Below are positions 23,843-45,028 of a stretch of 45,028 nucleotides of DNA, piece by piece. The notes under the pieces were generated by a model. The model was not told where the DNA came from. It saw only the letters and a program-made list of their open reading frames with translations, and did no database searches. How positions within the stretch are numbered: the stretch's first letter is position 1; the number at the start of each line of letters is the position of its first letter. Source of the stretch: Methylobacter sp. BlB1 (GTDB taxonomy: Bacteria > Pseudomonadota > Gammaproteobacteria > Methylococcales > Methylomonadaceae); NCBI RefSeq assembly GCF_015476545.1, contig NZ_JADMKV010000035.1:1-45028 (forward strand). Direction: 5' to 3'. The translations under genes and the position numbers were made by a program.

Positions 23843-23876
23843 ATGTGGGGGCGACTAAAGTCGCCCCCACATTTTT
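23843..23876 (+). terminator. REP-like palindrome acting as egtD terminator
   Basis: ATGTGGGGGCGACT (23843-23856) and AGTCGCCCCCACAT (23859-23872) form a 14-bp inverted repeat with a 2-base centre, followed by TTTTT. It fits an intrinsic terminator for egtD. Its core also appears near 41570 and 44090, so it belongs to a dispersed repeat family. Confidence 0.75.
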
Positions 23877-29342: not shown

Positions 29343-30653
29343 ATGAAATCAAGGCGTACTATTTTTCTTCCTCTCGTACTGTTGCCGTTCAGTTTTTTTC
29401 AGACAGCGCAGGCGATCACCGGCGGCTGTCCGATTGAAGGGGCGACGCCCATGAATATCGGTCCCCTCAACAATTCCCCGGACAGCGGTTTTCCGCTTTA
29501 CGTTCAGGATTCCAGCGGACTGACCGTGGAAATATGCCTGCATCCGACGCTGTGCATCTCCGATCCGGTGATTCCAGGGCATGAATTTTCGGAATTGATC
29601 GGCTTTGGCGCCGAGGGTTTCTGGGCGGCAGCCGATGCGATTATTACCACGACCGCCGGCATTGATGCACGTTTGATATCCGGTGTCGAGGCCGCCTTCG
29701 TGACCGAAAATCCGGCTGCCGGCCAGCAGTTTCCGTTTACGCGCCTGCGCATCCGCATCGATGTTCCGCAGGCCGGCATTTATACCGTGACGCATCCCTG
29801 GGGGCAGGAGGTATACACAATCGACACGCCGGGCGTGCGCGCTGTCAACGACAGCTTTGATATCGAGTTCGCCGCCAATTCCGTGCACCAGGGCCGCATC
29901 GGGCCGATTCTGCGCTGGGATGCCGGACTGCCGATCACCGACGCGCAGGGCGGGCAATATATCGGCGATCCGGCCATACCCCATGCTGTGACCGGCAGCC
30001 CTTGCGGCACCAATTTTTTCCGCATCGAGGCTGTTGATCTGGACGGCGTAACGCCGCTCGCTATCGATCCGGGCGATAGCGACAATAATGGCAGCGCCAG
30101 CAGCGTGCAGACCAATTTATTTAACGTTTCCGGCAAGCTTTTCAGCGGCAACGCGCCGGCGCCGTTAGTGGTCGACCGCACCAGCTATACCCGCGAGATC
30201 GGCGATGAAGGGCAAGTGAACGCGTTTGTCACCTCGGCGCCCTTAGCCGAAGTCACGGTGAGAGGGGAGCCCAATCTGCCCCCGGATGACGTACCGCTGG
30301 ATGGCAACGGACAAGGCCTGTTTTTCAAGAGCATTCCAGTGGACGCCAGTGTGTTGCCGGATTCAGTGGAAGTCAGCGCCAAGAACAGCGGCAATGCCAA
30401 CGCCTCGCATATCAACCTGCTCACCGATGCCGTGAATATTACCAAGGCCGAATATAACGTGACATCACAGACCCTGACCATCCAGGCGAACTCCAGCGAC
30501 AAGGCAACGAATCCTGTCCTCACGGTCTTCGGGTTCGGCGATCTGACCAACGGCAGCGGCACATTCAGCAATGTGATCGCTCCGCCTGCGAAAGTCACCG
30601 TGACCTCGGCAAAAAGGGGATCAGACAGCGAAGACATAACCATCATCCGGTGA
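29343..30653 (+). CDS. Secreted protein A of an unrecognised family
   Basis: A 436-residue exported protein. I start it at the ATG at 29343, not at 29295, because GGAGA lies 7 bases upstream and a standard signal peptide follows (cut after TAQA). The first 260 residues form the domain shared with the next two genes: GFPLYVQDSSGLTVEICL, FPFTRLRIRIDVPQAGIYTV, THPWGQEVYTI, SVHQGRIGPILRWD and VTGSPCGTNFF. DSDNNG at about residue 245 resembles a calcium-binding loop. A beta-rich region ends the protein. Cysteines in GGCP, ICLHPTLC and GSPC may form disulfides. No enzyme motif is seen. It is probably cotranscribed with B, 65 bp downstream. Confidence 0.85.
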   Translation: MKSRRTIFLPLVLLPFSFFQTAQAITGGCPIEGATPMNIGPLNNSPDSGFPLYVQDSSGLTVEICLHPTLCISDPVIPGHEFSELIGFGAEGFWAAADAIITTTAGIDARLISGVEAAFVTENPAAGQQFPFTRLRIRIDVPQAGIYTVTHPWGQEVYTIDTPGVRAVNDSFDIEFAANSVHQGRIGPILRWDAGLPITDAQGGQYIGDPAIPHAVTGSPCGTNFFRIEAVDLDGVTPLAIDPGDSDNNGSASSVQTNLFNVSGKLFSGNAPAPLVVDRTSYTREIGDEGQVNAFVTSAPLAEVTVRGEPNLPPDDVPLDGNGQGLFFKSIPVDASVLPDSVEVSAKNSGNANASHINLLTDAVNITKAEYNVTSQTLTIQANSSDKATNPVLTVFGFGDLTNGSGTFSNVIAPPAKVTVTSAKRGSDSEDITIIR

Positions 30654-30718
30654 AGGTGCGGCTATATCTGACTTATGCCGACACTTGCAACGACTGATAA
30701 AAAATACGGAGAAACCTC

Positions 30719-33133
30719 ATGAATTCAAGGCTTAATACGAGTATTGTCGCCGCCTTCGCGCTGTTTGCCTGCACCCAGAGCGCCCACGCAATTCCCGGCG
30801 GCTGCCCGATCGAAGGGGCAACGCCCATGAACATCGGTCCCATTAACCCACAAAACGGTTTTCCTTTATCGGTTCAGGATTCCAGCGGACTGACCGTGGA
30901 AATGTGCCTGGACCCGAACCTGTGCATCTCCGATCCGGTGATTCCAGGCAATGTCTTCTCTGAACAGATCGGTTTCGGCGCCGAGGGCTTCTGGGCATCA
31001 GCCGATGCCAGATTGACTACGTCTGCCGGCATTGATGCGCGCCTGATCACCGGCGTCGAGGCCGCTTTTTTGACCGAAACCCCCAGGAACGGCGACCAGT
31101 TTCCGTTTACGCGCCTGCGGATCCGCATCGATATTCCACAGGCCGGCATCTACACGGTAACCCATCCCTGGGGCCGCGAAGTCTATACGATCGAAACGCC
31201 GGCCAGACGGGCCGTCAACGAGAGCTTCGACTTCTCGTTTGCCGCCAATTCCGTGCATCAGGGCCGCATCGGGCCGATTTTGCAATGGGATTCCGATCTG
31301 CCGATCACTGACGCGCAGGGCGGGCAATACATCGGCAATCCGGCCATACCTCATACTGTGACGGGCAGCCCCTGCAACACCAATTTCTTCCGCATCGAAG
31401 CCGTGGCGCTGAACGGCGTGACGCCGCTCGCTATCGACCCGGGCGATAGCGACAATAATGGCAGCGCCAGCAGCGTGCAGACCAACCTGTTCACCGTTTC
31501 CGGCAAGGTTTTCACGCAAGTTGAACCGGCCGCGCTGGTGACCACCCGAACCACCTACGCCCGTCAGGCCAACAGCGCCGGCCAGGTGGATATCTTTGCC
31601 ACCTCGGACGCAGCGGCCAATGTAACCGTGAGCGGCGGCGCGAATCTGCCGGCCGGAGAAAATCCGCTGATCGGCGACGGCAACGGCTTGTTCTATTCCA
31701 GTCTGCTGCTGGAAGATGCCGCCATATTGCCCCGAGTGGTCAGTGTGACGGCCAACAGCTCAGGCAAGACACCTACCCGATTGCTGAGTCTGTTGACCGA
31801 CAAGGTCGACATTACGCGAGCGGAATATAATCTGCAATTGAAAACCATGACCATAGAAGCCGTTTCCAGTGATCTGCTCAATCCGCCGACACTCACGGCA
31901 TTCGGATTCGGCAATCTGAGCAATGGCGGCCTGACGGTTCCCGATATAACGGCTGCGCCTTCCAAAGTCAGGGTGATCTCGACGGCCGGCGGATCGGATA
32001 TCGAGAATGTCACCATTGTGGGAGCGGCACAGCCGGTAGCCGTCAACGATGCTTACAGCACATCGCAAAATACCGTGCTTGAGATTCCTGCGCCCGGTGT
32101 GCTGGGGAATGATATTAATCCTGATGGGACAGCGCTGACCGCTGTTCTGGCTGCCAATGTCAGTAACGGCACGCTTGCCCTGAATCCGGACGGCTCATTC
32201 ACCTATACGCCCAATACCGGCTTTATCGGACAGGACAGCTTTACTTATACGGCGCAGGACGGCAACTCGTCTGGTCCGGCAACCGTGACGATCGATGTCA
32301 TCGGCTCGAATGCCGCTCCGGTGGCCGTGAACGATGAGGCGACAACGGCCGAGGATACGCCGGCGAATATTGCGGTGCTCGCCAACGACAGCGATGCGGA
32401 CGGCAACACGCTGACTCTGACATCAGTCAATCCGCCTGTGAATGGTACAGCGGCCATCAATCCGGATAATACGGTCAGCTATACGCCCAATGCCAACTTC
32501 AATGGCACAGACGCTTTCACTTATAGCATTTCCGACGGCAACCTCACGGCCACTGCCACGATCACAGTTACCGTGACAGCAGTCAACGATAACCCGGTCG
32601 CGGTCAATGACGCGGCGACAACCACTGCCGGCACCCCGGTCACTGTTTCTGTGCTGGGCAATGACAGCGATATAGACGGCGACAATCTGACCGTAGCGGC
32701 CATCGCATCATCCCCTGCCAATGGTACGGTAAACTTTAACGCCAACAGTGTCACCTATACGCCAAATGCCGGCTTTACCGGCACCGACGCGTTCCAGTAC
32801 ACCGTTTCCGACGGCAGCCTGACAGCCACGGCCACCGTGACGATCACGGTCAATCCCGTCGCCGTAACCGATCAGGTGACAGTGATCACAGCCGATTTCA
32901 GGACGAGGGCCGTCCGCTGGTCGATCAGAGGCACCTCGGGGGCCAATACCACCGTCACCATCCATGTCGGTTCATCCGAGACGGGAACCGTTATCGGCAC
33001 TGCGGCGGCGGACCAGCGCGGCAGATGGAAATTCGATAGCCGCGGCGGCGCCCCGTTAGGAAACAATACGACTATCACTGTCGTTTCGTCAGGCGGCGGC
33101 AAAATAACCGTCCCTGTCACCGTAAGGAGATAG
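30719..33133 (+). CDS. Secreted protein B: family domain plus three tandem cadherin/Ig-like repeats
   Basis: An 804-residue paralogue of A. The signal peptide ends after SAHA. Residues about 25-430 align with A throughout, including GFPLSVQDSSGLTVEMCL and DSDNNG. Three beta-sandwich repeats of about 92 residues follow, each with the pattern PVAVND, VLGNDSD and YTPN-F-G-DSF-Y, as in the cadherin-like or VCBS-type domains of large bacterial surface proteins. The last 85 residues (with WSIRGTSGANTTVTI) form a separate domain resembling the end of C. GGAG precedes the ATG. It is likely extracellular or surface-attached; no sorting signal is evident. Confidence 0.87.
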   Translation: MNSRLNTSIVAAFALFACTQSAHAIPGGCPIEGATPMNIGPINPQNGFPLSVQDSSGLTVEMCLDPNLCISDPVIPGNVFSEQIGFGAEGFWASADARLTTSAGIDARLITGVEAAFLTETPRNGDQFPFTRLRIRIDIPQAGIYTVTHPWGREVYTIETPARRAVNESFDFSFAANSVHQGRIGPILQWDSDLPITDAQGGQYIGNPAIPHTVTGSPCNTNFFRIEAVALNGVTPLAIDPGDSDNNGSASSVQTNLFTVSGKVFTQVEPAALVTTRTTYARQANSAGQVDIFATSDAAANVTVSGGANLPAGENPLIGDGNGLFYSSLLLEDAAILPRVVSVTANSSGKTPTRLLSLLTDKVDITRAEYNLQLKTMTIEAVSSDLLNPPTLTAFGFGNLSNGGLTVPDITAAPSKVRVISTAGGSDIENVTIVGAAQPVAVNDAYSTSQNTVLEIPAPGVLGNDINPDGTALTAVLAANVSNGTLALNPDGSFTYTPNTGFIGQDSFTYTAQDGNSSGPATVTIDVIGSNAAPVAVNDEATTAEDTPANIAVLANDSDADGNTLTLTSVNPPVNGTAAINPDNTVSYTPNANFNGTDAFTYSISDGNLTATATITVTVTAVNDNPVAVNDAATTTAGTPVTVSVLGNDSDIDGDNLTVAAIASSPANGTVNFNANSVTYTPNAGFTGTDAFQYTVSDGSLTATATVTITVNPVAVTDQVTVITADFRTRAVRWSIRGTSGANTTVTIHVGSSETGTVIGTAAADQRGRWKFDSRGGAPLGNNTTITVVSSGGGKITVPVTVRR
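32027..32866 (+). repeat. Three tandem repeats coding cadherin/Ig-like domains
   Basis: Units begin near 32027, 32309 and 32585, each about 276-282 bp, or 92-94 codons. They share PVAVND at the start, GNDSD or ANDSD in the middle and YTPN with DAF-Y near the end. The second and third are closer to each other than to the first. Such tandem units commonly change copy number by recombination. Confidence 0.8.
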
Positions 33134-33153
33134 TAAAGCCGCTTTAGAGCAAT

Positions 33154-33205
33154 AAGCCGCCGTGCCGGATGGTCGAATCTGACAATCCCGTACGGCGGTT
33201 TTTTT
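33154..33205 (+). terminator. Terminator after secreted protein B
   Basis: AAGCCGCCGT (33154-33163) pairs with ACGGCGGTTT (from 33192) with one G-T wobble, followed by a run of seven T residues. It starts 20 bases after the stop of B and separates the A-B unit from C. Confidence 0.8.
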
Positions 33206-33753
33206 ATCCCTGCTGTCGCGCATGGGCGTCTCATCCCGTCTGATGCAAAGCATGCCGCTGCCGGGGGGCGAGGCTGTGAAAACTTGCGGGATTGAAGAGG
33301 GCTCGGCTTTTTTCGTCATCTCCTTTTATTGCTGCGCGAGGTTTTCGATCGCTTGGTATCGATGCGTTTGTCCGGTGCTTAGCCATGATTGAGGTCTTTG
33401 CCATTCACTATGGAAAATTCAATCATTTCAATTTGTTGAGTATCCTGCCTGCGGGAGCCTTCCCTTGAGTTAAAAGTTAAATCCCGCTTTTATAATCAGG
33501 TATTTGCCTGACTCAATTTCAGGTGTTCACCCGAGTTTGTTTGATTTGCTTTTGTTATACGCTGTGATCGAGAGCAGCTCAGTCTGGCTGCCATTGCGGC
33601 CCTTAACGAGCCTGCCTGATGCCCATACCAGACATTAATTAGGTCGGCTTCAGTTGAGGAATGGATGAGGATTATCGATACAAGAAATAATTTTCATACA
33701 GCAGTTCATGGATTACCGCCTAATGAATGTAAATCCTACAATGAGGTTTAAAC
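33206..33753. other. Intergenic region upstream of secreted protein C
   Basis: I see no gene here. It presumably holds the promoter of C; the AATGAGG ending 8 bases before the ATG at 33754 is the ribosome site. I cannot assign -35/-10 boxes. Confidence 0.5.
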
Positions 33754-36048
33754 ATGAAAATGAGACACACAGCTATTGCAGTCGCGCTCGCTGCGTCGGG
33801 CTTCTCCGCACAGGCCGATCTGGCCAGGGTCGGGCCTAGTAACGTGCCATCACCGCCGGGATATGGCTTTCCTCTTTGGTATCAGGATCTGAACGGCACA
33901 GTTCTGGATCTGTGTTTGCCGGACGCCAATGACCCCGGCGCTGCGCAGCAGAATGCCTGTTTACTGGTCGGACCCGGCTTGCCCGATCCGCCTTACAGCT
34001 TCCCGAACAACTTTCCCGATGAAGCGTTTTACTTCAATGCCACATCCGTGATGGACATGCCGGCAGGCAAGCGCGCCACGCTGGTTACGGCGCTGGAAGC
34101 GGCATTTTCTGTAGGCCCTGTAGTCATAGGCGATCAAATAACATTTACACGTATCCGCGTATTTGCCGGCGTTCCCGAACCTGGCACTTATACCGTGACG
34201 CACCCTTACGGCGTTGAAACCTTTCCGGTTGATTCCGTTTCCGCCGGCAATCGCGACATCGTCTTCAGCGAAGACGTCGGCGTGGCGCGCGGCATATTTG
34301 ATGGCGCGCTCAAAAGCCGCGTCGGGCCTTTCCTGCAGCGAGCCGACAGCCTGGGCGCCCCGCTCGGGCCGGTCACGGTTAACGGCGCTCAATTCCTGTC
34401 GGATGGGGCTGCCACGGAATTTGTCACCGGCAGTCCTTTCGGCACCAATTATTTCGAGATCTGCGGCGTCCGTACAGACGGCACGCCCATCATATTGGGC
34501 GATCAGGGCGCTAGCGGTATGTGTATTCGTTCCGACCAGTTCAGCCTGATGGGCCGCCTGCACGATTTTGTGGCAAATCCAATTCCCAGCCCGCTGGAAA
34601 TCTACAACAGCTTCTATAAGCGCGACGCGGACGGTACGCAGGTCGATGTCTACGCCCGCAATATCAAGGCATTGCCCAGCCAGCCCAATCCCTCGCTGAC
34701 AGCGGCGGCGGCCAATATAAAGCCTGTCAAGATGATTCCGTTCGGTCCGACTGGCCTCGGCCAATTCTATACTCAGGGCCTGGTGGATCCCAGCGGCGCC
34801 TTGCCTGGTCCCGTATCGGTCATCAACAGTGCCGATACGCCGTCCAGCAAGGTTACGAAGGATGCCGTCGATATCGTGACAGCGGCTTCGGCAAATTACG
34901 ATTACAACACGGATACGCTGACCGTAACGGCAACCAGCAGCGATAAAGGTTTCGGAACCGATCTGCCGCCAAAACTAAGCCTCGACGAGAATAAATACCC
35001 TGGCCATACGGCAGTGGCCGCCAACAACGCCAACGATCCCGCCGAAATGATACTGACGGCCACGGGAGTAGGCACGCCGCCGGATACTGTCACCGTTCTG
35101 TCGTCTGCCAACGGCAGCGGGACATTCCCCGTAATGCGCAATCAGGCGACAGGCGTCAATATACCTGGACCTGGCGTGCCGCTGGCGCTGGATGACAGCG
35201 CGACGGCGGAAGCGAATGGCGCGGCAGTCGAAATTCAGGTTGCCGAGAATGACATCGTCAATACGGCAGCGCCCATCACGTCCTTGCAACTGGTCGGGCC
35301 TGCGATACCGGCCGGTTCTGGAACTGCGTCCGTTAATGGCGCGAAAATCATCTACACGCCGGGTTCCGTCAATGGCGTCGTGACTTTCCAATATACGGCA
35401 TCGAACAGCGTCGGCCAGTCCAATGCGGCGACGGTGACGGTCACGGTTATTCCGTCCGCAGCAGGTCCTGCGCCGATCGTTAATCCCGATGGTCCAGTCA
35501 ATGCGACTGTCAGCCAGTCGGTAGTGATCAACGTGTTGGCCAACGATTCGGGCAATGGCGGCACGCTGAATCCGGCCTCGGTAACGTTAGCCAACGTCAC
35601 CGGCGGTACGGCGGCTGCCGATGCCACCGGCAAGGTGACTTTCACGGCCGGCACAGCGGCAGGCAACTTCGGCTTCGATTACACGGTAGCCAACGACAAC
35701 GGCCAGGTTTCGCCGACAGCGCATGTCGCAGTGACGGTCGTCAATCCTGAGAATATCCAGATAACTACATCACAGTGCAAGGTCATCAGTACCACGGCGG
35801 GCGAATGGCGCGTGGCCGGCACCAGCTCGGTGCAGACCAATAACAGCATCCAGTTGTATCTGACGGCATCTGTGCCGGCCGATCTGAGTGACAACAAACT
35901 GGGGGCAGCCGCCCCTGTTGTTGCCGGCGTGCCTAACGGTACCTGGGAAGTCCGGTTAAGACCGGGACCAGCCTGCAGGACGCCGATCAGCTTGATTTCC
36001 TCGGCGACAAGCGCCAAGCGGGAAAACATCGCTGTTGCGCCCAAATAA
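33754..36048 (+). CDS. Secreted protein C, divergent member of the same family
   Basis: A 764-residue exported protein with a signal peptide cut after SAQA. Its first 265 residues align with A and B but have diverged: GYGFPLWYQDLNGTVLDLCL, ITFTRIRVFAGVPEPGTYTV, THPYGVETFPV, SRVGPFLQ and VTGSPFGTNYFEICG. The DSDNNG loop is absent. Two or more Ig/cadherin-like units follow (VPLALDDSATAEAN and VINVLANDSGNGG regions), then a C-terminal domain with GEWRVAGTS and GTWEVRLRPGP. No catalytic motif is seen. It is followed by its own terminator, so it is probably a single-gene unit placed just before the oxidase operon. Confidence 0.85.
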   Translation: MKMRHTAIAVALAASGFSAQADLARVGPSNVPSPPGYGFPLWYQDLNGTVLDLCLPDANDPGAAQQNACLLVGPGLPDPPYSFPNNFPDEAFYFNATSVMDMPAGKRATLVTALEAAFSVGPVVIGDQITFTRIRVFAGVPEPGTYTVTHPYGVETFPVDSVSAGNRDIVFSEDVGVARGIFDGALKSRVGPFLQRADSLGAPLGPVTVNGAQFLSDGAATEFVTGSPFGTNYFEICGVRTDGTPIILGDQGASGMCIRSDQFSLMGRLHDFVANPIPSPLEIYNSFYKRDADGTQVDVYARNIKALPSQPNPSLTAAAANIKPVKMIPFGPTGLGQFYTQGLVDPSGALPGPVSVINSADTPSSKVTKDAVDIVTAASANYDYNTDTLTVTATSSDKGFGTDLPPKLSLDENKYPGHTAVAANNANDPAEMILTATGVGTPPDTVTVLSSANGSGTFPVMRNQATGVNIPGPGVPLALDDSATAEANGAAVEIQVAENDIVNTAAPITSLQLVGPAIPAGSGTASVNGAKIIYTPGSVNGVVTFQYTASNSVGQSNAATVTVTVIPSAAGPAPIVNPDGPVNATVSQSVVINVLANDSGNGGTLNPASVTLANVTGGTAAADATGKVTFTAGTAAGNFGFDYTVANDNGQVSPTAHVAVTVVNPENIQITTSQCKVISTTAGEWRVAGTSSVQTNNSIQLYLTASVPADLSDNKLGAAAPVVAGVPNGTWEVRLRPGPACRTPISLISSATSAKRENIAVAPK

Positions 36049-36062
36049 GCGCAGGGAATCGG

Positions 36063-36090
36063 AAACCGGCCCCGCCAGGGGCCGGTTTTT
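36063..36090 (+). terminator. Terminator after secreted protein C
   Basis: AAACCGGCCCC (36063-36073) pairs perfectly with GGGGCCGGTTT (36078-36088) around a GCCA loop, ending in five T residues. It is a strong intrinsic terminator 14 bases after the stop of C. Confidence 0.93.
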
Positions 36091-36207
36091 AAGGCTGAAC
36101 GGCAAAACAGCATCTGGACTTGCTGTTGAGTGTTGGGCAAAAAGAAAAGCACTGAAACACAATTTCTTTGCGCGGTTTTTCAAAAATAAAGATGGGGAAG
36201 GAGTGTC

Positions 36208-38136
36208 ATGTTTAAGAAAACAGTCAAAGTAACGAATTACAGCCAGCGCGAAAAGGCCATAGCCCGGTATATGCAGGAGGTTAACGATATTCAGAAAGCC
36301 GGCATCAGCCGGCGCGAGTTATTCAAGATGGGATTGACGGCTGGCGTGGGCGGCCTGACAGCGATCGGAGGTCGCCATTTTCTGCCTAATCTGGCCGAAG
36401 CGGCCGATAGAGGATTGATCAGTCCACCCTGTAGGAAACCCTGGACGGAGCCGCTGCCGATCCCGAAGGCCTGCCAATCGGTAGGCTCTTTTACCGGCCC
36501 TTCGCCGGAAGAAGGCAAATGCGGCGAAAAGCATACGCTTTGGAATCCCGGAAAAAATGATTTCGACGATTTCGAGGAAGCGCGCGACGAGGCGCACCAG
36601 CGCTGGAGCGAGTTGGGCGGCCTGGACGCCTGCACGAAATATGAACTGATGGTCAGGGAAATCGACTGGAATTTTTATTCAGCGCAAGAATACCCGGCAT
36701 TCAATTCCAAAGTCTGGACTTATGTCGACCTGAATTCGGACGCGGTCGGCGTGCTGCGCATCAATGCCCATTACGGCGAGCCTATACTCATGCGTATGTA
36801 CAATGGCTTGCCCAAGGATGACAAGGAAAACCAGGGATTCGGCATCAATCAGTGCTCGCCGCATCTGCATAACGCCCACAATCCCCCTGAATCCGACGGC
36901 GGGCCGACCCGGTTCTTCGATTCCGGCGAATGGTGGGATTACTGGTATCCGAACATTCGGGCAGGCTTCGCCAGCACGCACAGGAACGGCACCTGGTACA
37001 ATGGCGCCTGGTGTCCGGGCGACTGGCGGGAAACGCAAAGCACGCTGTGGTTTCACGACCACCGCTTCGACTTTACAGCCGCCAACGTCTATAAAGGCAT
37101 GGCCTCGTTCTACACGCTGTTCAGCAATGACATCAACCTCGATACCGGCGATGAAACGACCGGCCTGAGGCTGCCCAGCGGTGAATACGATGTCCCTTTG
37201 CTATTTACCGACAAGGTCTTCGACCAGACTGGCCAGATGTTCTTCGATACCTTCAATCTGGAAGGCATCATCGGCGATATGCAGACGGTCAACTTCAAGA
37301 TCAAGCCCTATATGTATGTCAAACGCCGCAAATACCGTTTCCGTTGCCTGGATGCCGGGCCGTCACGGTTCATCGAACTGTTTCTGAGCAATGGCGCCAA
37401 GTTCACGCGCATCGCCAATGACGGCAATCTGCTGCCCAAGGCGCAAGTCGTCTCCAGTGTACGGTTGGGTGTAGCCGAAAGGGCGGATGTGATCGTCGAT
37501 TTCAGCCAGTATGCGCCCGGTACGGTGATTTATCTGGAAAACCGGCTGGAACAGCTCAACGGCAAGGGCACTTCCGGCAAGCTTCTGCCTTCCGGCAGCA
37601 AGACGCAGCTTCTTAAGTTCATCGTGTCCGGCGATCCGGTCGTCGATGAAAGCGCGCCGTTGAGCACGCTCCAGTCTCAGGTCATGGTGCCGTTGCCAGC
37701 CAGAACCAATCCCATCAAGGTCAACCGGACCTTCAAATTCGATTCAAGCAATGGCGCCTGGACAGTCAATGGCAGGCTATTCGATCCCTCCAGAATCAGC
37801 GCCTATCCGGCAGAGGGTTCGGCGGAGCGATGGACGCTGAATTCGAGCGGCGGCTGGTCTCATCCGGTGCATACACATCATGAGGAATTTCAACTGCTCA
37901 GTCGCAACGGCAAGGCCGAGAACCTGGCGATCGATGACAAGTCCCGCAAGGACGTAGTAAGAATCGGCGATGGCGCCGTGGGTTCGTCGGGATCGGGCGA
38001 GGTCAGCTACTACATACAATTCCGCGACTGGTACGGCGACTATCCCTTGCACTGCCACAACGTCGTGCATGAAGACCATGCCATGATGATTCGTTTCCGC
38101 ATCGTGCCGCCCGATGATTCGAAGGCCGGCAAGTAA
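36208..38136 (+). CDS. Tat-exported multicopper oxidase
   Basis: A 642-residue three-domain laccase-type oxidase. The twin-arginine signal SRRELFK (34-40), followed by a glycine-rich hydrophobic stretch, implies folded, copper-loaded export through Tat. Copper motifs are HLHNAH (219-224; the usual glycine is replaced by asparagine), WFHDHRF (281-287), HPVHTHHEEF near 550 and HCHNVVHEDHAMM (615-627), which has the type 1 Cys, His and Met. Large insertions separate the first two motifs from the N-terminus, with several extra cysteines (75, 89, 105, 142). The family resembles CotA and bilirubin oxidase. AAGGAG lies 5 bases before the ATG. It is followed after 23 bases by the SCO gene. The substrate is unknown. 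Confidence 0.9.
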   Translation: MFKKTVKVTNYSQREKAIARYMQEVNDIQKAGISRRELFKMGLTAGVGGLTAIGGRHFLPNLAEAADRGLISPPCRKPWTEPLPIPKACQSVGSFTGPSPEEGKCGEKHTLWNPGKNDFDDFEEARDEAHQRWSELGGLDACTKYELMVREIDWNFYSAQEYPAFNSKVWTYVDLNSDAVGVLRINAHYGEPILMRMYNGLPKDDKENQGFGINQCSPHLHNAHNPPESDGGPTRFFDSGEWWDYWYPNIRAGFASTHRNGTWYNGAWCPGDWRETQSTLWFHDHRFDFTAANVYKGMASFYTLFSNDINLDTGDETTGLRLPSGEYDVPLLFTDKVFDQTGQMFFDTFNLEGIIGDMQTVNFKIKPYMYVKRRKYRFRCLDAGPSRFIELFLSNGAKFTRIANDGNLLPKAQVVSSVRLGVAERADVIVDFSQYAPGTVIYLENRLEQLNGKGTSGKLLPSGSKTQLLKFIVSGDPVVDESAPLSTLQSQVMVPLPARTNPIKVNRTFKFDSSNGAWTVNGRLFDPSRISAYPAEGSAERWTLNSSGGWSHPVHTHHEEFQLLSRNGKAENLAIDDKSRKDVVRIGDGAVGSSGSGEVSYYIQFRDWYGDYPLHCHNVVHEDHAMMIRFRIVPPDDSKAGK

Positions 38137-38159
38137 CGCGACTGAGCGAGGATAAAACC

Positions 38160-38816
38160 ATGAACAAAAGAGATTTTATCAAAAAGCTGACCGGTGCTTC
38201 TCTCGGCATAGCCACATTGAACACCTTGCCTTCCGCCGCTATCGCCCAAGGCGATTTTCACCCGGCCAGAATGGACCGGGCCGAGCGCCGCAAAAAATCC
38301 TTTCCGAACGTGCCGCTGATTACGCATGAGGGCGAGGCCGTGCGGTTCTACGACGATCTGATCAAGGACAAAACCGTACTCATCAATTTCATGTACGCGC
38401 GTTGCGGCGATATCTGCCCGGGCATGACCGCGAATCTGAAAAAGGTGCAGAAAGAATTCGGCGATAGGGTAGGGCGCGATATCTTCATGTATTCGATCAC
38501 GCTGGAGCCGGAACATGACACGCCGTCAGCGCTGAAAGCCTATGCCGAGCTCTTCAGGGTCGGACCGGGATGGAAGTTCCTGACAGGCAAAAAAAATGAC
38601 ATCGAACTGCTGCGCAGACAACTGGGTTTTACTTTCTCGGACCCGATGCTGGACCAGGACAAAACCCAGCACATAGGCGTCGTCAAATACGGCATCGAGC
38701 CGCTGGAGCGCTGGGGAACATGCCCGGCCCTGGGTAATCCCAAATACATCGCCGAATATCTTTATTGGATGGAGCCTGACGGACGGCGGCCGAAACAATC
38801 GGAAATGCTGGGTTAA
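38160..38816 (+). CDS. SCO1/SenC family copper chaperone
   Basis: A 218-residue thioredoxin-fold protein. The copper-binding pair C82 and C86 is in RCGDIC, and the third ligand H171 is in DKTQHIGVVKYG, as in SCO1. Its N-terminus (NKRDFIKKL then a hydrophobic stretch ending SAAIA) looks like an export signal, possibly a KR variant of Tat. SCO proteins deliver copper to cytochrome oxidase or act as thiol reductases. The position 23 bases after a multicopper oxidase suggests it loads copper into that oxidase instead. GAGGA is 7 bases before the ATG. No clear terminator follows. Confidence 0.93.
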   Translation: MNKRDFIKKLTGASLGIATLNTLPSAAIAQGDFHPARMDRAERRKKSFPNVPLITHEGEAVRFYDDLIKDKTVLINFMYARCGDICPGMTANLKKVQKEFGDRVGRDIFMYSITLEPEHDTPSALKAYAELFRVGPGWKFLTGKKNDIELLRRQLGFTFSDPMLDQDKTQHIGVVKYGIEPLERWGTCPALGNPKYIAEYLYWMEPDGRRPKQSEMLG

Positions 38817-39271
38817 GCCCGCACTTGGCAGGGACAATGGCGCCACGGACGGCACGGCTCATTCATGGCATAAATCAATGATAGCTCAAAAATGCCTTAA
38901 AATTTTCCGTGCGACACGAAATTAATATCAATAATTTCATATATTTATTTAATTTTTAATTAAATAATCATTAGATAAAATTAATATTTAGGTAGTAGTG
39001 CTTATTTATCCCTTCTGACGCAAGCGCTAGCATAATGTCGTAGTGTGTCAAGTTAAAAAGAATAAAAAACAGACATTTTTTTAAATTTGTGAAACGTGTC
39101 ACGTTTTTTTTGTCCGCTGATACACCAGATTGGGGGAGCCATGTTGATCATGTGTCTGCCTGATGAGACATATTTTATTCGAGCATCAATAGAATTGATT
39201 AGTTGTAAATTTTTAAAAGTATCTTCTTTTCAATGCTTTTAAAAAGTCCCGTCAGAAGTGGAGAATTATAA
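38817..39271. other. AT-rich intergenic region before the response regulator
   Basis: A very AT-rich block (about 38930-39000) includes TTTAATTTTTAATTAAA-like palindromes. No gene is seen. The regulator gene's promoter must lie here; see the CRP-like site. Confidence 0.5.
39088..39111 (+). promoter_or_regulatory. CRP/Vfr-like site overlapping a small hairpin with T-run
   Basis: TGTGAAACGTGTCACG (39088-39103) matches TGTGA-N6-TCACA at nine of ten defined positions. The AAACGT/ACGTTT part can also fold into a 6-bp hairpin followed by eight T residues (39104-39111), so a weak terminator is an alternative reading. It lies 170 bp before the regulator gene. Confidence 0.5.
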
Positions 39272-39970
39272 ATGTATAAGATTGCAATAGTTGAGGACCA
39301 AACGATTATAAGAGCAGGGCTGTATGCGGTACTGACTCAGGAACCGCAGTTTAATGTTGTTTCTCAATCCGGGGATCCCATTGAATTGTTTCGGCAAACC
39401 TGGTTCGTCCCGCCTGATCTGGTGCTGCTGGACCTGATCATGCCCAAGATGAACGGCGTGGAAGCCATAGAAGAAGTCAAGAAGCGCTGGCATGGCACAA
39501 AAGTATTGGTTTACACGTTCAAGGATGCGGGCGCGAGCATTTCTGACGCATTCCAGGCAGGCGCTGATGGCTATCTGCTGAAGAACGCCTCGACGGAAGA
39601 ATTGGTTTCCGCCGTAAAAAACGTATTGGCGGGACATTACTATGTTTCAGATGAGATTTTACCGACGATCATGAGCCGGTATCTTCGGGCGGAAAGAATG
39701 CTGTCGGCCAACCATTTGCAGAACCTCCTGACCACACGGGAGCGTGAATTGCTTAAATTGATAACCGAGGGTTATAAAAATAAAGAAATGGCGGACAGTC
39801 TTTGCATCAGTTTAAAAACAGTGGAGACGCACCGGACTAATCTGATGAAAAAACTCAATGTGCATAATGTAGCGGAATTGATCTCAGTGGCAGGAGAGGC
39901 CGGCATTACCCGCTCTGACAATCGATCTTTTAATCCTGTTTCTTTTCGCCAAGTCCAATTGGCGGACTAA
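39272..39970 (+). CDS. NarL/FixJ-family response regulator
   Basis: A 232-residue regulator. The receiver has E8/D9 near the start, the phospho-acceptor D54 in LVLLDLIMPKMNG and K105 in YLLKNAS. A LuxR-type helix-turn-helix follows: LTTRERELLKLITEGYKNKE and LKTVETHRTNLMKKL. No kinase gene is next to it, so its partner lies elsewhere. Its position between the oxidase-SCO operon and the cytochrome-binding protein gene makes these plausible targets. A TGGAGA ribosome site precedes the ATG. Its 3' end overlaps the convergent gene by 4 bp. Confidence 0.93.
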   Translation: MYKIAIVEDQTIIRAGLYAVLTQEPQFNVVSQSGDPIELFRQTWFVPPDLVLLDLIMPKMNGVEAIEEVKKRWHGTKVLVYTFKDAGASISDAFQAGADGYLLKNASTEELVSAVKNVLAGHYYVSDEILPTIMSRYLRAERMLSANHLQNLLTTRERELLKLITEGYKNKEMADSLCISLKTVETHRTNLMKKLNVHNVAELISVAGEAGITRSDNRSFNPVSFRQVQLAD

Positions 39971-41511
39971 CGCTCATTTCGGGATGCTGAAACAATAGTA
40001 ACCGCTGTTGAGCCTATGTGTCGGTTCGACCCGTAAGAAAGAAGGGGTATCACCCCCGTGTCGAACTGATAAATAGTTTCCAGCGTATTGATCAGCTTTT
40101 TCCTGCTTAAGTCCCTGCCTGTTCTTTGCAGGCCTTCCGCTAATAGTTTGGCTGCACTGTAAGATACGGCTTGCGCGGTTAAATGATGCATTGAACGATT
40201 ATTTCGTTTGATCAGCCGGAAAAACTCATCCGCGTTCGCTTGAGCGGGCGGCGCGAGAGACAGGGACATAAAAATCCGGCTGCCGGGCGCTTCATTAAAC
40301 ATGCCAGGGCTTGTCAGTGAGCCGGAGACAAACAGGTAAGGTTTCGGCTTCAATTGTTCGGCGCTCTTCAATAACATGCGCAATTCATCATCAGTGCCAA
40401 AAAAGAAAATCACGCCCGGCGCCCGCCTTTTAAGTTCAGCAGCAAACATCTGGGATTGACGCTGCGGATAAATGAATTTGCCGGCCGGACCCAAGCCGCG
40501 AGCCCGGCTTTGTTTGTCGATAGCTTCGAGCGCGCCTTGGACCATGGCGTTTTTAGGGCCGATGACCATCGGCGCGGCATTCTCCAGGCGCAATGCATCA
40601 GCCGCATAATCCACCATGGCGCGGGCTTCGTTTTTAAGGCCCGGCAGCAGATAGAAAGCGGATCGGCTGCGGACCGGATTCTCTTCAGGAAACAAGGTAT
40701 AAGGGCCGATCTGCGGAACGCTGCGGCTCTCGCTCAGCAATAAAATATCCTGCTCCAGGTTGCCGGCGAACGGCGCTATTAAAGCAAATACCGGTTCGGC
40801 TTCGAGCAGACGGCGCGCATTCTCTATGGTCGAATCGGCGCTGCCGGTGAACTCGGCGACTTCCAGGCGAATCTCGCGATTGTAAATGCCGCCTCGTGCA
40901 TTAATCTCGTCAAAATAAGCCGACAGCATGTCCTTCATGGCCTGGCCCATGCCCGCCAAGGGGCCGCGCATCGGCAGCACTGTGCCCAGCCGGATAACAG
41001 ACTCGCTCAGCCCCGGATCGGCATCGGTCGAGAGGCGTTTCAGGTACGCGATCAGGTCGGCGCTGTCGCTGGCAGACAACGCGTATCTCGGCATGGCGGA
41101 ATCCAGCCGGTTGCCGGCCGGATCGAGGCCGCCGGCAATAGCCGCGGCGATAGTGCCGGCCGTGAAAGCGGCATGTTTTCTGCCGTTGTCATGGGTGTGC
41201 CCATAGGCCAGGGTCAGGTGCTCAAAGGTGATGTCGGTTGGAACGATGCCGCCTTCCGGCCGCCCATGCCCATCCTCGCCATGGCAGCCGGCACAGGGCA
41301 CATCCGTCCCCGACAGTTCCGTCGATTCGGGCCCTACCAGCGCTTTGACCGGCTTGCCGGAAGGGCCGGCGCCGGTCAGGTAAAGCTGCTTGCCCCGCGT
41401 TTCCGAAGCCGTCAGCGGCGCAGCCGACAGGGAAGGGCTGAACAACACGGCCGATAACAGCACAAAGCCGGCCGCGTCCAATCCGTTTATTGTTTTATCA
41501 GGGCTTTTCAT
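39967..41511 (-). CDS. Cytochrome c fused to an ABC-type periplasmic ligand-binding domain
   Basis: A 514-residue exported protein with an N-terminal signal (cut near SLSA). Residues about 35-160 form a class I cytochrome c with CAGCH (73-77) for covalent heme and a probable axial M140 in SAMPRYAL. From about 165 a periplasmic binding protein of the branched-chain amino acid type (Peripla_BP_6) begins with VIRLGTVLPMRGPLAGMG and continues to the end. A heme domain on such a receptor suggests that ligand binding is tied to electron transfer or redox sensing. No permease or ATPase gene is nearby, which argues against simple uptake. It is convergent with the response regulator gene. Confidence 0.9.
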   Translation of the reverse strand: MKSPDKTINGLDAAGFVLLSAVLFSPSLSAAPLTASETRGKQLYLTGAGPSGKPVKALVGPESTELSGTDVPCAGCHGEDGHGRPEGGIVPTDITFEHLTLAYGHTHDNGRKHAAFTAGTIAAAIAGGLDPAGNRLDSAMPRYALSASDSADLIAYLKRLSTDADPGLSESVIRLGTVLPMRGPLAGMGQAMKDMLSAYFDEINARGGIYNREIRLEVAEFTGSADSTIENARRLLEAEPVFALIAPFAGNLEQDILLLSESRSVPQIGPYTLFPEENPVRSRSAFYLLPGLKNEARAMVDYAADALRLENAAPMVIGPKNAMVQGALEAIDKQSRARGLGPAGKFIYPQRQSQMFAAELKRRAPGVIFFFGTDDELRMLLKSAEQLKPKPYLFVSGSLTSPGMFNEAPGSRIFMSLSLAPPAQANADEFFRLIKRNNRSMHHLTAQAVSYSAAKLLAEGLQRTGRDLSRKKLINTLETIYQFDTGVIPLLSYGSNRHIGSTAVTIVSASRNER

Positions 41512-41872
41512 GGCAGGCAGTCAGCAGGTCATAGATTCTGAAAGGTAGCACTTACGCAAGCTTGTGGGGGCGACTTTAGTCGCCTTTTATATTGAAACGG
41601 GCGGCTAAAGTCAGTCGCCCCCCACATTATTAGAATAGCTTTTTTTCATCTTTAGATCACCTAATCCTGTTTTCTACCGTTTATGAGAGTCTTTCTACCA
41701 TTGTCGTTATCGAAGGAGCGAAATACTGCCGGCTTTACTGTGGGCGTGAGAAAGAGCACAGCCCATCCGGGGCTGCACTCCGTCCGATACGCTTTAGGTA
41801 ATATTCGACACGTAATTTGCTCCACAAATTGCTACAAAGTCGGAACGATACTCGCCTTACCCCGGCCCTGGC
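41512..41872. other. Intergenic region containing a repeat copy
   Basis: It holds the 41550-41628 repeat and the upstream region of the cytochrome-binding protein gene. I see no gene and no clear terminator for the oxidase ending at 41873. Confidence 0.5.
41550..41628. repeat. MITE/REP-like element, partial copy
   Basis: ACTTACGCAAGCTTGTGGGG at 41550-41569 repeats the left end of the element at 44018 almost exactly. GTGGGGGCGACT (41564-41575) pairs with AGTCGCC-CCCCAC (41613-41625) around an internal GGCTAAAG segment. The right terminal repeat seen in the larger copy is missing, so this is a decayed or shorter copy. Confidence 0.7.
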
Positions 41873-44212
41873 CTAGTTGCCCGCCAGCGGAACCGGGCAG
41901 TCAGCCTGATTGCCCACGCAGAGGGGGCGCATCATGTCGTGGTCTTCATGAGACAAAATATGGCAATGCCAGACATACAGGCCGGGGCGGTCGAATCGGG
42001 CTTTTACGCGCGTCACTTCGCCGGGATAGGCGATCACTGTGTCTTTGGAACCGAATTCCCAGGCTTCCGGTCCCCTGGCAGCGCCTCCTATTGGTGTTGC
42101 CGGGAGCAAAGGCATACCGTTCAGATCGGTTTGCAGCGGCTCACGGCTTTCAACCTGGAACTCTACCAGGTGCATATGGACAGGGTGGGCGTCTGCGGTG
42201 AAGTTGTAGATTTCCCATATCTCCGTGGCGCCGTTGCCGGGATTTTCGGTAACCGGGTCCATCCAAGGGAAGGGCGCAGGAGCGCCATAGCTATCCAGCG
42301 TGCCAAGCATGGAAATGGTCGGGCCGAACGGAATACCGGTAGGATCCTCGATAATATTCACCAGGTTGCCATTGGCATCGGTGTTGTAATTGGCAAACAC
42401 GGTTCCGGATTCCATTTCGTTGAGGGAAACCTTGCGTATCATTGAAGGGTTGCCTAAATTTTCAGCCGGCAACAACTCCGTTATCTGTTGCGGAGGAATC
42501 GAGTTGTCTTTCGAAGTTGCCTGCACGACGTTAAGCTTCATGATCTGGCCTGTGGTGTCCGGATCGGAGAAGGCATAATCCACCCCGCCTTGGCCGCCGC
42601 CATAAGGCTCATCAGGGCCTTCATTGATCAGGTAAAGCTGCGTACCGTTAGCCACATTGGTGAAATCCACGATCACATCGGCTCTCTCGGCGGGCCCGAT
42701 AAGAAGCGAACCTGATTGTGCCGGCTGGGTCTGAAATCCGCCATCGCCTCCAACCACCCAAAACGGCACGGCCTCTGTTGCTGGCCGGGCTGTCGGGTCG
42801 TCGGCAATTTTCAGAATCATGAAGCGCGAGTCTGACGCATTCAGAATGCGAAAACGATAACGGCGCTGCTCGACGTTAAGTTTCGGCCAGCTGTGGCCGT
42901 TGACCAGCATCACGTTAGAGAAATATTCCGGATTCCAGATGGGCGAGACATCGCTGTCGCCGCCCGTTGCGGTTTTGCTCGGAATGAAGGGTATCTGAAG
43001 ATCGTTCTTGGCCAGTCCTTCGAAGAACGCCCGATCGCCCGGATAAAACAGGCTGCCGTCACTGTTGAAAGCGCGGTCTTGAATGACCAAGGGAATTTCG
43101 TAGGCGCCTTTAGGCAATGACGCGCTAGGGAGGTCCGATGCGCCGCCGCGTAAAAAGTAATTTCCTGTCAAACCGGCATAGACGTTGTTTCTGGTCATGC
43201 CCAGCGCATGGTCATGGAACCACATATGCGTGGCGCGTTGATCATTGGTATATTGATAAGTTGCGGCTCCGGCCTCATCGGCGACCCCGTCTATTTGTGT
43301 CCAATGGGAGCCTCGGGGCGCATAGCCGGCCGGAATATCCGATGCCGCAGGCAACGTCCATGATTCGGGATAGCCGTCGCTTCCCGAAACGACATGCGCA
43401 CCGTGTAAATGTGTAACCAAAGGCACTGGTCCGGTATACGGATTCGGGTTTGTGCCCATGCTGTCCTGTCCTCCCGGGCCTCCGGCAGGATTGGCCCAGT
43501 GCACGGTCTGATCGACCGGCAGAAGGTGGGGAAGGAAATTTCCTTTTTTACCTTTGAGGTCGTTGATCCATTTTACCTGTACCGGCCGGTTGACTTTCGC
43601 TTCGATGGTATAGGAAGGAGAATGGAAGGTTTTCGAATCACTGCTGGCACCATATGCCCATAGTTTCGTTTTAGGCAGCGGAGCCGGAAGAACCTGTTGT
43701 GAAATCTGGCGTGCAGCGATTTCGTAATAATCGATTTTAGAATTACTTTTGTAAGGCACTTTAGGCATTGCGGGTGGAACATACAAAGGACTGGCGTATT
43801 TGGGTATTGTCGCCGGATCCAAGGTGCCGCCCGGCAGTGCTGCCCAGGCGGCGCTTCCCATCCATGGCAGCATAAGCATCAGGCTGACTCCGGCCAGAGT
43901 CCGCCGCTTAAGTGGGCATATGGCTTTTTGCCTGACTTTTCCCCGGTACTTTATGGTTTTGCCGGGCAGCTTTTTCGGGTCATGCGATTGAGTTGCTAGC
44001 GAGGGAAAAACATCATTATCAGGACTTACGCAAGCCTGTGGGGCGACTTCGCCTAGAGCGCCTACTGTTGGCAGTCGCCCTTTATCTGAATGGGCGACTG
44101 AAGTCGCCCCCACAGGTTTTAGAGCCGCTTGTCTCAGTAGTTGAACAGGCAGACTGCATAAGTCCTGATTGTGGATCACATTATTATTGTCGTTATGCAC
44201 TCTCTGAGACAT
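41873..44212 (-). CDS. Exported laccase/CotA-like multicopper oxidase with element-derived leader
   Basis: A 779-residue three-domain oxidase. Copper motifs are HLHGAH (268-273), WFHDHALG (331-338), HPVHMHLVEF (676-685) and HCHILSHEDHDMM (749-761), a complete type 1, 2 and 3 set. The signal segment KRRTLAGVSLMLMLPW (102-117) is cut near AWA (124). It may be Sec, or Tat because of KRRTLAG. About 100 residues precede it, and residues 15-65 are coded by an inserted repeat element. I keep the ATG at 44212 because TGAGGG lies 8 bases before it and no other Met, Val or Leu start has a good site. It may oxidise metals or phenols; the substrate is unknown. Confidence 0.88.
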   Translation of the reverse strand: MSQRVHNDNNNVIHNQDLCSLPVQLLRQAALKPVGATSVAHSDKGRLPTVGALGEVAPQACVSPDNDVFPSLATQSHDPKKLPGKTIKYRGKVRQKAICPLKRRTLAGVSLMLMLPWMGSAAWAALPGGTLDPATIPKYASPLYVPPAMPKVPYKSNSKIDYYEIAARQISQQVLPAPLPKTKLWAYGASSDSKTFHSPSYTIEAKVNRPVQVKWINDLKGKKGNFLPHLLPVDQTVHWANPAGGPGGQDSMGTNPNPYTGPVPLVTHLHGAHVVSGSDGYPESWTLPAASDIPAGYAPRGSHWTQIDGVADEAGAATYQYTNDQRATHMWFHDHALGMTRNNVYAGLTGNYFLRGGASDLPSASLPKGAYEIPLVIQDRAFNSDGSLFYPGDRAFFEGLAKNDLQIPFIPSKTATGGDSDVSPIWNPEYFSNVMLVNGHSWPKLNVEQRRYRFRILNASDSRFMILKIADDPTARPATEAVPFWVVGGDGGFQTQPAQSGSLLIGPAERADVIVDFTNVANGTQLYLINEGPDEPYGGGQGGVDYAFSDPDTTGQIMKLNVVQATSKDNSIPPQQITELLPAENLGNPSMIRKVSLNEMESGTVFANYNTDANGNLVNIIEDPTGIPFGPTISMLGTLDSYGAPAPFPWMDPVTENPGNGATEIWEIYNFTADAHPVHMHLVEFQVESREPLQTDLNGMPLLPATPIGGAARGPEAWEFGSKDTVIAYPGEVTRVKARFDRPGLYVWHCHILSHEDHDMMRPLCVGNQADCPVPLAGN
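44018..44169. mobile_element. MITE-like element inserted in the oxidase leader
   Basis: ATCAGGACTTA (44018-44028) is the exact reverse complement of TAAGTCCTGAT (44159-44169), and the similarity continues a few bases inward. Inside are two GGGCGACT palindromes matching the repeats at 23843 and 41550. No target duplication is clear. At 152 bp with no coding capacity of its own it fits a non-autonomous mobile element. It is open in the oxidase reading frame. Confidence 0.75.
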
Positions 44213-44235
44213 ATATAAACCCTCAATAATGCTAA

Positions 44236-44269
44236 GTTATAAAATTTATGTTTTAAAAAACAAACATAA
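44236..44269 (-). promoter_or_regulatory. Promoter and possible operator of the laccase-like oxidase
   Basis: On the minus strand, TTGTTT (44263-44258) and TATAAC (44241-44236) are 16 bases apart, giving a transcript start about 17 bases before the ATG. An 8-bp dyad TTATGTTT (44246-44253)/AAACATAA (44262-44269) covers the spacer and the -35 box and could bind a repressor or activator. Confidence 0.55.
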
Positions 44270-44839
44270 TTGTTTGATAAATAAGTAAATTTTGTTAAAA
44301 CATTCTTGTTCAATATCCGTGAGCCTCGCTCGGATCACCCGTGTGCACGACCTGAGCATGATTTCTCTTGCATTCATTCCTGTTCCTTTAACAGCGCATT
44401 TTTCATCTCGACGGCAGGCATTGGTCTAACCTGCAAGACGGGACTATCCTGCTTTCTATTGCGTGGCGGCGCATCCTCCACCATCCGCAGGCAAACCGGA
44501 ATGGCGCCTGATTCTGGTAGCGCCAATGGATCACGGCATTGGCCGATTCCCACTTAGCGATACCTTAAAAAATCATTAAGGCAGGCAGACTTTATCTGTA
44601 GAGCTAGAGAGTGCATATCAGGTGAAACCCTGATTTTTAACTCAGAAAGTACCTGATTTGGTGGGCTGCAATTTGTGAAAACTAAGTAGTCGGGTGACGA
44701 TGCTTCCGTCATTCGAAAATGACGTCATGCAGGGAGGTTCGGATACTCGTGAGCTTAAGCTCCAGGCATTTTCACGGCGAGCATCAAGCAGTTTATCGGT
44801 TAAAGCTCCTGTTTTGTCTGCAGTCCTGCAGAAATGGAA
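44270..44839. other. Intergenic region between the two minus-strand oxidases
   Basis: Between the promoter above and the terminator below I find no supported gene. An 83-codon plus-strand frame from 44306 has no ribosome site or recognisable composition. Confidence 0.5.
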
Positions 44840-44870
44840 AAGGGTGCAGCCGACTATCGGCCGCACCCTT
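44840..44870 (-). terminator. Terminator of the partial copper oxidase gene
   Basis: AAGGGTGC-A-GCCGA (44840-44853) pairs with TCGGC-C-GCACCCTT (44857-44870) around a 3-base loop, with a single mismatch. On the minus strand it runs into TTTTCC. It lies 19 bases after the stop of the partial gene. Confidence 0.88.
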
Positions 44871-44888
44871 GATACGTTTTACGGGATG

Positions 44889-45028
44889 CTATTGCACGCG
44901 TAATTTACCCCACAGCCCGCCGTCAAACTGGAACGATGCCTGATCCCGGTAGAGGTAATCCCCGGGCGTTGCAAAGACACCGCCGGCGCCATTGGCCAGC
45001 AGGAAGTTGAAATGGCTGCCCGGCCCGA
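44889..45028 (-). CDS. C-terminal end of a multicopper oxidase-like protein (cut by window edge)
   Basis: The last 45 codons before a TAG at 44889-44891 are visible; the rest lies beyond the window. The peptide contains GPGSHFNFLLANGAGG, GDYLYRDQASFQFDGGLWG and LRVQ at the end. GDYLYRDQAS followed by GLWG is the type of ending I associate with large bacterial copper oxidases of the cupredoxin fold, but no copper ligand is in the visible part. The assignment is moderate. Below 60 residues it is easily missed. Confidence 0.6.
   Translation of the reverse strand, partial: GPGSHFNFLLANGAGGVFATPGDYLYRDQASFQFDGGLWGKLRVQ

Follow-up and report, generated by a model that had tools for sequence, protein, structure and literature searches.

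The closest described relatives of the system considered here are two kinds of gene cluster for extracellular copper-dependent oxidation. In the iodide oxidase (IOX) cluster ioxABCDEF of Iodidimonas sp. Q-1 and Roseovarius sp. A-2, a multicopper oxidase (MCO) gene is followed by a gene for an SCO copper chaperone, as it is in the locus analysed here, and the account of that cluster in PMC9415286 reports that the purified enzyme contains IoxA together with IoxC and acts on iodide and on phenolic compounds, while stating that it is unclear what IoxC and IoxE do. With IoxA and IoxC both contained in it, IOX offers a model for a partner-dependent extracellular oxidase. In the mofABC genes of Leptothrix and the ompB cluster of Geobacter, an MCO is accompanied by a protein with cytochrome c and periplasmic-binding domains and, in some, by a copper chaperone (passages of PMC5566968 and PMC8218464); section 13 of PMC5566968 describes MofC-like proteins as combining cytochrome c with a periplasmic binding domain, some of them being encoded near SCO genes. 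Here we describe an interval of eight genes in Methylobacter sp. BlB1 (positions 29343-45028 of contig NZ_JADMKV010000035.1), in which an oxidase, MCO1, and its SCO gene adjoin members of a group of secreted proteins that we call family A. The window, by which we mean the whole stretch of DNA analysed, is this entire contig of 45,028 bases from a genome of 4.87 Mb, and position 45028 is a contig end.

The eight genes are two modules lying side by side: a core composed of A3, MCO1, SCO and a response regulator, and a divergent pair composed of a cytochrome c-binding protein fusion and a second oxidase, MCO2. With moderate confidence, we consider the core, together with A1 and A2, to be an oxidase module of the IOX/Mof kind that works outside the cytoplasm and in which the secreted partner has been swapped, family A taking the place held elsewhere by IoxC or by a further secreted type that we call S. 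MCO1 (36208-38136, forward strand) is a three-domain MCO of 642 residues with a twin-arginine-like N-terminus and all four copper-site motifs (HLH at 219, HDH at 283, HPVHTH at 552 and HCHNVVHEDHAM at 615). The SCO gene (38160-38816, forward strand), encoding an SCO1/SenC copper chaperone whose CxxxC motif reads CGDIC, starts 23 bases after the end of MCO1 and thus lies directly downstream, as in the iox layout. A3 (33754-36048, forward strand), with a family-A N-domain, two Big_9 domains and an export-like N-terminus, lies immediately 5' of MCO1, and the regulator (39272-39970, forward strand) is of the NarL/LuxR type.

This order of four genes was common to four Methylobacter genomes, namely those of the window, M. 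luteus (L010), a Methylobacter metagenome-assembled genome (L011) and M. tundripaludum SV96 (L012), with A3 in the same position in each; in Candidatus M. titanis (L013), MCO1, SCO and the regulator stand at the start of one contig and A3 at the end of another. The regulator has an ortholog at the equivalent position in L010 to L013, and when that of M. tundripaludum was compared with the window genome, the window regulator matched at 57% and the next best at 28%; it probably controls the core. Among the named genomes found, M. luteus held the closest relative of MCO1, at 93% identity. Pairwise ratios of nonsynonymous to synonymous substitution rates (dN/dS) were lowest for MCO1 (0.08-0.09) and were 0.15-0.16 for SCO, 0.16-0.20 for A1, 0.16-0.24 for A1-A3 together, 0.16-0.22 for the regulator (with saturation in the M. 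tundripaludum comparison), 0.20 for MCO2 and 0.28-0.30 for the fusion. Every computable value was at or below 0.30, and both the core genes and the second module are under purifying selection.

The MCO1 family was sampled from the best 80 of 103 stretches found with exact MCO1 peptide patterns, together with stretches from related genomes, which gave 100 distinct oxidase rows from 97 loci, some sharing a locus or genus and hence not independent. An SCO gene lay within 9 kb (centre to centre) for 98 of these rows and directly downstream in at least 86, a lower bound, since contig ends or a naming clash account for some of the misses. In a quick tree of 101 rows, with Shimodaira-Hasegawa-like approximate likelihood ratio test (SH-aLRT) support only and no authentic Iodidimonas sequence included, the IoxC-linked oxidases formed a single clade (36 rows, 34 with IoxC nearby, Roseovarius among them; support 99), and MCO1, a relative of IoxA, fell in a separate 16-row clade (support 100) whose partners were S in ten rows, family A in five and neither in view in one. 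Based on the partners of these two clades, we concluded that the MCO-SCO core is constant and that the large secreted partner changes by clade. The identification of MCO1 as IoxA proper was rejected on its position outside the IoxC-linked clade of this quick tree.

No IoxC match was found within the window. An IoxC-type cluster occurs in M. luteus, M. marinus and a further sister species, G002, and the IoxC-type oxidases of the three sister genomes scored about 345-352 bits with MCO1 as the query; the same search of the window's genome returned MCO1 itself at 1538 bits, a longer relative on contig C157 at 276 bits and nothing else above 71 bits, so that an IoxC-type oxidase is probably absent from it. 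The second MCO1 relative of the window genome (L156:9493-12561) is 1023 residues long, has C-terminal immunoglobulin (Ig)-like He_PIG/Big_9 repeats and is followed by an SCO gene; it thus combines an oxidase with repeats of the general type found in A2. Separately, five methanotroph loci (L158, L015, L017, L024 and L019) have the order long MCO-SCO-MCO1-SCO-S protein-MauG-type di-heme enzyme, and the 780-residue S protein of L158 had no Pfam match.

Family A is represented in the window by three paralogues, A1 and A2 being 67% identical and A1 and A3 33%, each with an export-like N-terminus; export was judged for all proteins of the locus from their N-termini by eye. A1 (29343-30653, forward strand) consists of the N-domain alone (436 residues), and A2 (30719-33133, forward strand) joins it to three Big_9 domains and a C-terminal module that also occurs in S-type partners of MCO1 loci. 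No family in Pfam or NCBIfam covers the N-domain. The fold model of A1, with a mean predicted local distance difference test (pLDDT) score of 58.6, is usable only in its C-terminal part, where Ig-like matches were found, and its template modelling score (TM-score) against the PDB did not exceed 0.32 among the 50 matches listed. Among 5,856 open reading frames, all from fetched loci and mostly from MCO and A neighbourhoods, the last 110 residues of A2 matched, besides A2 copies, only four S-type partners (L158 at 2.7e-12, L026 at 1.8e-10, L020 at 2.3e-8 and L034 at 1.7e-7), which ties A2 to the S-type partners within that set.

The profile of the family-A N-domain was matched in one of 398 sampled Pseudomonadota genomes, that one being the window's own, in 5 of 61 relatives, the window's own included, and in 18 of 50 genomes that carry MCO1-family genes; the first survey scored at most four candidates per genome and the other two scored all, so that the contrast in frequency is somewhat flattered, and the last covered 50 of 78 MCO1-family loci, hand-picked for their MCO1 relatives. 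Within the 23 A-bearing genomes, eleven had A no more than 10 kb from an MCO1-type oxidase (MCO1-like in seven, the long relative in four), one had it beside a remnant and one at 30 kb, and two were undecided by contig breaks; these distances were worked out by hand, and the oxidase of G501 runs beyond the stretch analysed. The combination of catalyst, copper loading and secreted partner set out in a preliminary description of this DNA thus recurs, with SCO near almost every oxidase row and A near such oxidases in several lineages. By eye, two-component-looking genes were seen near A in 5 of the 7 A stretches listed, and in Pseudomonas resinovorans a curlin-like repeat protein (L213:7057-8436, also by eye) adjoins two family-A genes.

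If the core is indeed such a module with a swapped partner, its general build would be that of the iodide oxidase cluster, with a copper oxidase, an SCO copper-loading helper and a clade-specific large secreted partner. MCO1 would be exported in the folded state, would receive its copper with the help of SCO, and would be held by, or cooperate with, the Ig-repeat A proteins at a putative surface location, where electrons from a small extracellular reductant (an inorganic ion or a phenol) would pass through MCO1 to oxygen.

Several observations weigh against this interpretation, beginning with the uneven, hand-picked and neighbourhood-based sampling described above. In eight of the 23 A-bearing genomes no MCO was near A in the stretch examined, four of these being on short contigs (G482, 4.7 kb; G467, 8.6 kb; G469, 12.8-17.6 kb; G463, 18.6 kb), and G004 has a second A copy with no MCO nearby. 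The last 120 residues of A3 matched S weakly (E 0.011), and the fold models of both A1 and an S protein (mean pLDDT 52.6) are poor. Kinship of the A N-domain with IoxC, S or the YVTN protein was rejected, the profile comparison probabilities being below 2%; it is the results for IoxC and S that count here. In the sister species G002 (L157), A1-A3, the regulator, the fusion and the gene H276 are open, MCO1 survives as a stop-containing remnant of about 80 residues, its SCO gene has been lost, of MCO2 the ends alone are left, and the dN/dS of its A genes against M. luteus was no higher than in the window. G002 has thus kept A after losing both oxidases, which argues that A is not simply dependent on MCO1; the pattern may reflect a recent loss, the service of A to other oxidases or a role of A's own. 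The other oxidases of G002 are those of its IoxC-type cluster and a long MCO1 relative. G001, the fourth member of the genus, lacked A, MCO1 and MCO2, and its relatives of the fusion were all distant ones. Within a single genus the locus is found complete, without its oxidases or absent, a natural series of losses on which the question of the partner can be tested directly.

One gene of the second module is the fusion (39967-41511, reverse strand), encoding an IoxE/MofC-like protein with Cytochrom_C and Peripla_BP_6 domains whose CxxCH heme motif is kept as CAGCH. Beside it stands MCO2 (41873-44212, reverse strand), a CotA/phenoxazinone-synthase-like MCO of 779 residues that holds the same four kinds of copper motif as MCO1. 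The fusion, next to MCO2, represents a further module, of the IoxE/MofC type, with an inheritance of its own; it probably relays electrons or a ligand for an oxidase outside the cell. Close relatives of the fusion (62-89%) were found in G002, G003, G461 and G468, and no match at E 0.001 in the three genomes of the M. tundripaludum kind (L011-L013). Of 60 other genomes, M. luteus alone had an intact close relative of MCO2 (83%), and eight others gave matches of 39-52%. The fusion family stands beside oxidases of both the iodide-oxidase and the Mof/OmpB types: in IoxC-type clusters it follows the second SCO, which by gene order is the place of ioxE, and in the mof-like clusters of G465 and G004 its relatives lie beside an FKBP gene and a giant oxidase. 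Mof-like clusters with giant oxidase, FKBP and fusion (L248:3021-11189 and L170:8241-17935) mark two genomes of the methanotroph family as possible manganese oxidisers. YVTN, SCO and fusion genes occur together in M. luteus, G461 and G468, and in G004 and G021 an S-type protein lies between YVTN and SCO. The window locus is without the second SCO, the YVTN gene and H276 seen in M. luteus; its fusion is present but, unlike that of M. luteus, is not preceded by an SCO gene, and its putative identity as IoxE is based on gene order.

A palindromic repeat (hairpin, 41564-41626) adjoins the point at which H276, a gene of two sister species, is missing. Copies lie at 23845-23870, 41564-41626 and 44093-44113, with a z score of -6.3 for the copy at 41560-41630; the repeat pattern gave 4 matches at three places in the window, none in 100 shuffles, and 11 full or partial matches genome-wide. 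A related copy was seen by the MCO1 remnant of G002, and a copy of the window repeat itself lies within the MCO2 reading frame (44057-44130, reverse strand), ahead of the likely export signal. The N-terminus of MCO2 is longer in the window than in M. luteus (779 against 726 residues), and the true start may be further in. A further MCO gene, MCO0 (13847-15592, 581 residues), is found on the same contig outside the eight-gene interval.

The preliminary description had treated all eight genes as one assembly, and its gene content proved far beyond chance; that they form one unit is another matter, on which the answer was mostly negative. MCO1, MCO2, the fusion and A1-A3 were all intact in only 2 of 61 genomes, the window's and that of M. 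luteus, three genomes have the core without a match to the fusion, and G002 has lost both oxidases, so that a single eight-gene unit was rejected on losses and absences across relatives. A3, MCO1, SCO and the regulator are syntenic in four Methylobacter genomes, and the fusion and MCO2 were intact together in the same two genomes only. As for its inventory, the three secreted paralogues, two complete copper oxidases, SCO chaperone, heme-receptor fusion and single regulator are all there. A supposed third, partial copper oxidase fell away: positions 44213-45028 contain no long open reading frame and had no significant match to 38 query proteins, oxidases included (best E 0.004 over 54 residues, to a protein that is not an oxidase). 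The suggestion that metals or phenolic compounds are oxidised outside the cell is sound as to the kind of reaction and did not stand as to the substrate, on which sequence is silent, a metal, iodide, a phenol and Cu(I) all being candidates.

It is unlikely, in our estimate, that the locus serves copper handling, with MCO1 and MCO2 acting as CueO-like cuprous oxidases that protect or feed a copper-demanding methanotroph and A comparable in role to CorA/MopE. Such a role would fit the copper-repressible surface proteins of methanotrophs that PMC3912023 describes as co-transcribed with di-heme peroxidase-like genes, and in several S- and A-type loci elsewhere a di-heme CCP_MauG-type gene does lie near the oxidase. 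Both oxidases were also matched by the CueO equivalog model, but at 115.2 and 100.1 bits they did not reach its cut-off of 525. A domain scan of the eight genes revealed no kinase, copper pump, MauG-type gene or FKBP; the lack of a pump and of a MauG-type gene speaks against copper handling, as does the 40-row family-A alignment, in which no His or Met is invariant.

We regard as improbable a manganese- or iron-oxidising system like that of mofABC/ompB. The domain composition of the fusion is the one published for MofC-like proteins whose genes neighbour those of MofA/OmpB and SCO (PMC5566968, section 13), and two other genomes within the family have relatives of it next to a giant oxidase and an FKBP gene, but neither oxidase here is of the giant MofA type, FKBP is missing from the eight genes, and three genomes keep MCO1, SCO and the regulator without any match to the fusion. 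We give little credence to the idea that the secreted partner, be it A, S or IoxC, is a client, such that the MCO, with MauG-type di-heme enzymes where present, would oxidatively mature or cross-link a co-encoded surface protein into a redox-modified coat and oxidise small ions as a side activity; were this true, the core would be a general protein-maturing machine with interchangeable clients. A chance grouping of secreted-protein genes, each inherited independently and with no joint function, in a region of gain and loss perhaps mediated by palindromic repeats, would accord with the rarity of the intact set, the differential losses in G002, the absence of SCO2, YVTN and H276 relative to M. 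luteus and the palindromic repeat at two such loss points, but is made very doubtful by the A3-MCO1-SCO-regulator synteny, the fact that A lies close to MCO1-type oxidases in further lineages, and the C-terminal module that A2 has in common with S partners.

Setting the proposed extracytoplasmic oxidase core with a swapped secreted partner beside known systems, we found by sequence that the nearest solved relatives of MCO1 and MCO2 are bilirubin oxidase and CotA. The copper motifs of these enzymes and of phenoxazinone synthase are kept in both oxidases, and to our knowledge none of the three occurs with SCO and family A. Literature searches on methanotrophs or Methylobacter with multicopper oxidase gave nothing on this locus among the matches listed, those on Methylobacter with 'iodide oxidation' gave no paper, and a link between IoxE and MofC was not found in the literature searched, although other wordings could escape. 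In comparison with iox, MCO1 shares the broader family but lies outside the IoxC-linked clade, and the window has family A instead of IoxC. Clusters of the iox layout have an SCO and a cytochrome c-binding-protein fusion in the ioxD-ioxE place (by gene order), whereas the fusion here is on the opposite strand, lies behind the regulator and lacks its SCO. In comparison with mof, the window fusion matches the make-up of MofC, as likened by the published domain description (PMC5566968), but the window is without a giant MofA/OmpB-type oxidase, judged by size and nearest solved relatives, and without FKBP (MofB) among the eight genes, its MCO2 being CotA-like. The MCO cluster of Sideroxydans lithotrophicus ES-1, compared by description, has MCOs predicted to be extracellular, together with mofC-like genes and genes for copper chaperones, and section 13 of PMC5566968 does not mention family A there. 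Clusters of an extracellular MCO, a copper chaperone and a MofC-like gene are thus already in print in that section; new here are family A, the exchange of partner by clade and a helper common to the iox and mof types. These results place a third partner type in methanotrophs, give the secreted family A a testable role, and link the iox and mof/omp extracellular oxidase systems through the helper genes that they have in common.

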